From Hemicentrotus pulcherrimus (lineage: Eukaryota; Echinodermata; Echinoidea; Camarodonta; Strongylocentrotidae), in assembly GCA_003118195.1 (NCBI GenBank), contig BEXV01000037.1, positions 68,457 through 132,456 on the forward strand: a DNA stretch of 64,000 nt, read 5' to 3'. The translations under genes were made by a program, and so were the position numbers. A model generated the notes under the pieces. That model saw only the letters and a program-made list of their open reading frames with translations, was not told where the DNA came from and searched no databases. Numbering within the stretch: the first letter of the stretch is position 1; each line of letters starts with the position of its first letter. Positions 35,334 to 36,681 of this stretch are shown piece after piece.

Positions 35334-36681
35334 ATGATTTCTAGCGCCCATACAATGCTCCTAATCTTGACTTTACTGCTGTGTCTCGCTACGTGTGCAA
35401 GGCTAGGTTCAAGCGTGAAGTCCGGTATTACAGCAAAGGTCATTGGAGACCTCATGATTGGAGGATTGTTTCCGATTCACGAGAAGGGTTCCCAAAACGT
35501 CGGATCACTCGATGACGAGAGGTGTGGACTTATCAACGAAGATAGAGGGATCCAGCGAGTCGAAGCTATGCTGTTTGCCATAGACAAGATCAACAATGAT
35601 TCTACGATCCTACCCGGTATCAGATTAGGGGCAAGTCTGAGAGACACTTGTTCAATAGACACATTTGCCTTAGAGCAGTCTCTTGAATTTGTTCGGGTTT
35701 CTTTGACAACATCGAATCCTACAGATTGTCTAAATGAGAGCGCTATTGTAGCATCAACGTCTGCCGGGAGTGTAGCGGGTGTCATAGGTGGATCATACTC
35801 CACCGTATCTATGCAAGTGGCCAATTTACTGAGATTGTTTGAGATTCCCCAAATCAGCTACGCGTCTACCAGCGCTCGTCTTTCAGACAAGTCTCGATTT
35901 GAGTTTTTCGCGAGGACAGTTCCACCGGACACACTTCAAGCCAAAGCCATTGCAGACATCTTATCACACTTTAACTGGACTTACGTTTCAACTGTATGGT
36001 CTTCTGGAGAGTAAGGTGAATCTGGAATGGATCAGTTTGAAAAAGAGCGGTTGCATAGGAACATCTGCATTGCGGCTTCTGAAAAAATCCCCTACTCACC
36101 CGATGCAATGACTTATGATCTAATCATTAGTCGGTTAATCAAGAAAAAGGCAGCCAAAGTTGTCGTTCTATTTACTCGTGATGTGGATGCACGGGACTTG
36201 CTGGAAGCTGCACTTCGCGTTAATGCTTCAAAGAAGTTTATATGGGTTGCTAGCGACGGATGGGGTGTTCAAGACACACCTGTTAACGGTAGAGAGACCG
36301 TCGCAGAAGGAGCAATCACGATTGAGCTCCAAACAAAAAAGATAAAGGGGTTCGATAAATATTTCCGGGGTATAAACCCAAGGACGAACACGCGGAATCC
36401 ATGGTTCAAAGATTTCTGGGAGCAGAAGTTCCAGTGCCTATTGGAACCTGGAGATAGTGTAAATACATCGACGCCGTGTGCTGAAAATGTTCTGGATGAA
36501 TCAAATCACGCGCAGGAAAAGAAAACACAGTTTGTTGTGGATGCAGTGTTTGCCATGGCACATGCTCTACATACGATGCAAACTGACATGTGCCCAAACA
36601 CGGAGGAACTCTGTGATAATATGCTGCCAATAGATGGAAGGAAACTTTTCAAGGAATACATTCTTAACACAACATTTGTAG
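35334..36681 (+). CDS. mGluR exon 1: signal peptide and most of the glutamate-binding domain
   Basis: Start chosen at the ATG at 35334 (A at -3), which gives MISS followed directly by a leucine-rich signal peptide ending near CLATCA. The frame is open from an in-frame TGA at 35136; the only earlier in-frame ATG is at 35286, adding 16 residues and a weaker context. A GTG at 35196 is not a plausible eukaryotic start. Visible landmarks: GLFPIHEKG, EDRGIQR (Arg71, Arg75), a loop cysteine at 132 matching the inter-subunit disulfide position, GGSYS (Ser154, Ser156), YASTS (Ala177, Thr179), TVPPD, FNWTYVSTV, SDGW (Asp308) and AEGAITIEL. Several N-glycosylation sequons are present (for example NDS, NES, NWT, NTT). 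The exon ends in phase 1 at a GTGAGT donor (36682). An in-frame TAA lies at 36012. Confidence 0.93.

Follow-up and report, generated by a model that had tools for sequence, protein, structure and literature searches.

A lone in-frame stop codon at the Tyr222 position of an otherwise intact group II metabotropic glutamate receptor gene in a sea urchin draft assembly

Structure of the Gene and Its Surroundings

The stretch of Hemicentrotus pulcherrimus DNA analyzed here, referred to as the window, is 64,000 nt long and harbors a gene with three coding exons on the + strand, which together make up 891 codons followed by the natural TAG. The coding part of exon 1 (35286-36681), which ends at a GTGAGT donor, covers the signal peptide of a group II metabotropic glutamate receptor (mGluR) and almost all of its ligand-binding domain. 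Two start codons come into question, an ATG at 35286, which matches the start of an mGluR3-like protein of Lytechinus variegatus (P0001), and an inner alternative at 35334. Exon 2 (36900-37972) completes the ligand-binding domain and continues through the cysteine-rich domain (NCD3G) into the seven-transmembrane (7TM) domain, of which it holds the larger part. Exon 3 (56995-57201) runs from the last transmembrane segment through the cytoplasmic tail to the natural TAG, and the encoded C-terminus matches that of the L. variegatus protein. The two introns between them (36682-36899, 218 bases, and 37973-56994, about 19 kb) are both of the GT..AG type. The longer one contains an assembly gap (47798-48571), and with four runs of N in the window the assembly is evidently a gapped draft.

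Pfam searches recover the Venus-flytrap ligand-binding domain (PF01094, ANF_receptor) on either side of the stop codon discussed below (E 3.5e-41 and 2.1e-29), and in exon 2 the nine-cysteine domain (PF07562, E 3.2e-13) and the class C 7TM domain (PF00003, E 3.4e-66). Against the PDB, both pieces of the ligand-binding domain rank mGluR3 first and mGluR2 second, well above mGluR4/6/7/8 and mGluR1/5. Judged by these search scores, the gene is a group II mGluR homologue, nearer to mGluR2/3 than to groups I and III.

The same contig carries a second mGluR gene, in more pieces (L010 and L011, G000:C37:213994-224323), some 88 kb downstream from exon 3. This gene is probably group III-like, since mGluR7 is the top match of its 7TM piece (E 2.1e-52), followed closely by mGluR2 (1.4e-49). 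The window also contains long imperfect CTA triplet arrays at 7715-8155 (148 copies) and 21082-21255 (59 copies). An open frame of 181 codons, rich in Thr and Ile, results from the first of them and is unlikely to be a gene.

Position of the Stop Codon

Within exon 1, a TAA at 36012-36014 (+ strand) stands in frame between the peptides VSTVWSSGE and GESGMDQFE. It occupies codon 243 and is the sole in-frame stop in the 891 codons, which show no frame break and no second lesion; the original prediction of a stop in an otherwise intact mGluR is thus confirmed, and the copy as written encodes no full receptor. Alignment with a PDB structure (chain 8tqb_A) places the codon before the TAA at mGluR3 residue 221 and the codon after it at residue 223, so that the stop replaces Tyr222, as had been proposed. 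The homologues agree, as Tyr occupies this column in all 120 of those listed (the best 120 of 804 hits), and the change amounts to a single base, which was likewise foreseen. The equivalent residue of mGluR2, Tyr216, packs against the ligand according to an excerpt of PMC12394075.

The original prediction laid stress on the stop falling exactly on a ligand contact. This carries little weight, because 270 of the 891 codons, including 29 for Tyr, can turn into a stop by a single substitution. In a receptor this heavily studied it comes as no surprise that a stop should land on some residue of known role, and a stop elsewhere in the gene would have been equally disabling. Probably, then, the placement is a coincidence.

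Conservation of the Remaining Reading Frame

The best listed homologue is the L. variegatus protein, which shares 818 of 890 residues (92%) with the frame and is the representative of a cluster of 23 sequences, among which an intact counterpart from the window's own species could be present. Diadema setosum follows at 79%, and then come sea stars, a brittle star and a sea cucumber. The sequence around the stop is therefore conserved, as had been claimed, although with 92% identity to the nearest listed relative not fully so. With Diadema as outgroup, 20 lineage-specific changes fall to the present gene and 19 to Lytechinus, 26 being unassigned. Upstream of the stop the counts are 4 here and 7 in Lytechinus, and downstream they are 16 and 12 (Fisher p 0.30). 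Among the 120 listed homologues 171 columns are invariant, and besides the stop itself 169 of the remaining 170 are kept. The sole other change in an invariant column lies in exon 2, at codon 544, where the present gene has Gln and all 120 listed homologues have Glu. Eight further positions, which we take to be glutamate contacts under our assumed numbering, are identical to those of a whale mGluR3 (P0016).

How long a gene in neutral decay could look like this was estimated by simulation, assuming that 60% of substitutions are transitions, that one indel occurs for every eight substitutions and that every indel is a lesion, and scoring runs that acquired no second lesion and changed one or none of the 170 invariant columns. 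The probability of the observed state was 0.19 at 0.3% divergence, 0.05 at 0.5% and 0.0035 at 1%, while at 2% and likewise at 4% none of 2,000 runs produced it. Any loss of constraint is thereby bounded at about 0.5% divergence. In the excerpted part of PMC5437941, the SNP density of sea urchins is given as about 1%. With a bound below this density, whatever caused the stop postdates the differences that typically separate two alleles, or else the stop is absent from the animal altogether. A long-standing pseudogene is excluded by the same bound together with the relative rate of 20 against 19 changes. There is one lesion only, with neither accumulated disabling changes nor relaxed constraint. 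The three explanations that had been offered at the outset (a consensus error, a null allele or a very recent pseudogene) all hold as options.

Lone Stops Elsewhere in the Assembly

Whether one stop in such a gene is unusual depends on how often lone stops occur in the assembly. A search of the same assembly for class A G protein-coupled receptors (GPCRs) gave 149 matches, with 147 of 582 candidates scored, and seven of these matches contain internal stops. Six were read and the seventh lists 14 stops. Of those read, one has two stops (L020, contig C986) and one is an intron read-in (L018). The other four, L019 (TGA), L021 (TAA, C3293), L022 (TGA, C1457) and L023 (TAG, C376), each have exactly one in-frame stop, flanked on both sides by open receptor frame. 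The first of these (G000:C439:217000-219200, with its TGA at 890-900) is muscarinic-like by the piece before the stop, and its TGA presumably sits at the conserved second-loop disulfide cysteine. The pieces after the stop of L019 and L021 found no match in a PDB search with strict cut-offs.

Four lone stops in about 37,700 class A profile positions correspond to about 1.1e-4 per codon, from which about 0.1 would be expected in 891 codons. The stop is thus not clearly beyond chance for a gene of this size. Much the same rate can be derived for Ciona intestinalis, where PMC3424144 reports, for one animal, nonsense SNPs in 610 of 15,254 genes (4.0%) and a mean protein length of 447 aa. These figures come to about 0.9e-4 nonsense changes per codon, and the two rates agree. 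Expanded families are included in the class A control, and some of the lone stops counted there may mark true pseudogenes.

Closer controls come out cleaner and count to some extent against such a base rate. Of the other near-full-length class C 7TM matches, all five are without internal stop. Stops are listed for 15 of the 32 class C matches, and in the match of the present gene they represent intron read-in past exon 2. In an HSP70 control, two of three long matches are without internal stop. The third (L015, G000:C2119:57400-59700) has a TAG shortly before the C-terminus, after which an HSP70-like frame continues.

Origin of the Stop Codon

Taken as a whole, the evidence suggests a commonplace null variant of one letter or a sequence error, and calls for no new biological mechanism. 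The explanation that we favor, with a probability of roughly 0.6, is a young null allele that segregates in a very polymorphic species and was captured in the haploid consensus. Support comes from the single TAA, the intact splice sites, the unrelaxed constraint and the comparable lone stops in other receptor genes.

What such an allele would produce can be outlined from the gene model. Both exon junctions follow the stop, at distances of 667 nt and 1,740 nt. The exon-junction rule for mRNA decay is known mostly from vertebrates, and if it applies here in its usual form, decay of the message is expected at these distances. Transcripts of the TAA allele would mostly be degraded by nonsense-mediated decay, which makes the secreted half-domain product of the original prediction doubtful. 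Any protein that did arise would be a fragment consisting of the signal peptide and the first lobe, 242 residues long from the ATG that aligns with the L. variegatus start; the 226 residues first given would result only from the inner ATG. Without the second lobe, the cysteine-rich domain and the membrane domain the fragment would not signal, and a carrier would depend on its other, intact allele. A donor-like context was noticed by eye at the stop, but the TAA lies upstream of the donor and would remain in the spliced transcript, so rescue by splicing was rejected.

The next explanation, which we regard as possible, if doubtful, is that Tyr is encoded on both chromosomes of the animal and that the assembly is in error at one base. 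A lone substitution without other decay is just how an error would look in a gapped draft of this kind. The protein search finds one copy only of the gene in the assembly, and the TAA base is without a confirming allelic copy. The immediate surroundings offer little to provoke an error, as there is no homopolymer at the site and no repeat of at least 12 bases that could cause misassembly in the interval examined (35800-36250). Moreover, if the four control stops were to be accounted for by error alone, about 1 error per 1,000 bases would be needed, given that 3.4 to 4.2% of random substitutions create stops (the fraction in the present gene). A consensus error near 1 in 1,000 bases is high for a draft. 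This argument favors the null allele over a base error to a moderate degree and is not decisive, and it is weaker if the four control stops are pseudogenes.

A very recent fixed loss, which would leave the species or population without its only group II mGluR, we hold to be unlikely. Such a loss would have left no further mark yet, and the protein search of the assembly brought up no further group II gene, the next best matches having 27-47% identity. Against this, neutral decay would have to amount to less than about 0.5% divergence, and the assembly searched (414 Mb, 4,189 contigs) may be incomplete, so that a second group II copy is possible. Nor is there a truncated urchin model among the matches listed for the pre-stop fragment: none of the best 120 of 382 is named as urchin, and the top ones reach about 64-68% identity.

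Of all explanations, functional recoding fares worst. It would require the UAA to be read through, mostly with insertion of Tyr, so that the receptor is made, perhaps at a regulated low level. As stated in the excerpted part of PMC7764779, UAA readthrough inserts Gln, Tyr or Lys, which would give some products with the native residue, and the entire downstream frame is conserved; the same excerpt, however, ranks UAA as the least leaky stop. The 135 nt from position 36006 fold no better than shuffled sequences (z -0.02, with 90 of 200 shuffles at least as good), and a search of 30000-46000 against Rfam at gathering thresholds gave no match. At the position of codon 243, no stop occurs in any of the 120 relatives listed, so there is no conserved recoding. 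The locus thus lacks the conserved leaky context or downstream structure of programmed readthrough. A-to-I editing can turn UAA into a Trp codon and cannot yield Tyr. The restoration of the receptor by readthrough or recoding, which had been raised at the outset, is accordingly very improbable. There is only a slim chance that the TAA is both real and common, in which case the population would only recently have been deprived of its one group II mGluR, or would make a trickle of receptor through Tyr-inserting readthrough of the UAA.

Significance and Comparison With Known Systems

The locus is chiefly a caution. Drafts made from one animal of a very polymorphic marine invertebrate yield occasional single stops in conserved genes, and since lone stops are to be expected in them, they should not be taken as gene loss. 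Counting lone stops within the same assembly, in conserved single-exon receptors, offers a cheap calibration. Were the stop to prove fixed, the urchin would have undergone a natural knockout affecting presynaptic glutamate autoreception, a role that mGluR2/3 serve in vertebrates. No report of an mGluR null in an urchin was among the literature matches listed. The excerpt of PMC7280269 lists mGluR genes of the red urchin that change with age and belong to the same receptor family.

The nearest counterparts are the echinoderm mGluR2/3 orthologues, of which the L. variegatus protein has the same domain order, 92% identity over 890 residues and the same ligand contacts. It differs in having a Tyr codon where the present gene has TAA at codon 243. 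The four class A GPCR genes L019, L021, L022 and L023 resemble the present gene in the stop itself, with one in frame and the frame open on either side, whereas they belong to larger and partly expanded families in which true pseudogenes are likelier. A parallel to the favored explanation is found in the nonsense SNPs of highly polymorphic marine deuterostomes, of which Ciona intestinalis is one. Several animals were resequenced there according to the excerpt of PMC3424144, in contrast to the one consensus sequence here, and yet the pattern is alike, with stops due to a change of one base scattered through otherwise normal genes, at a rate near 1 per 10,000 codons for one animal.
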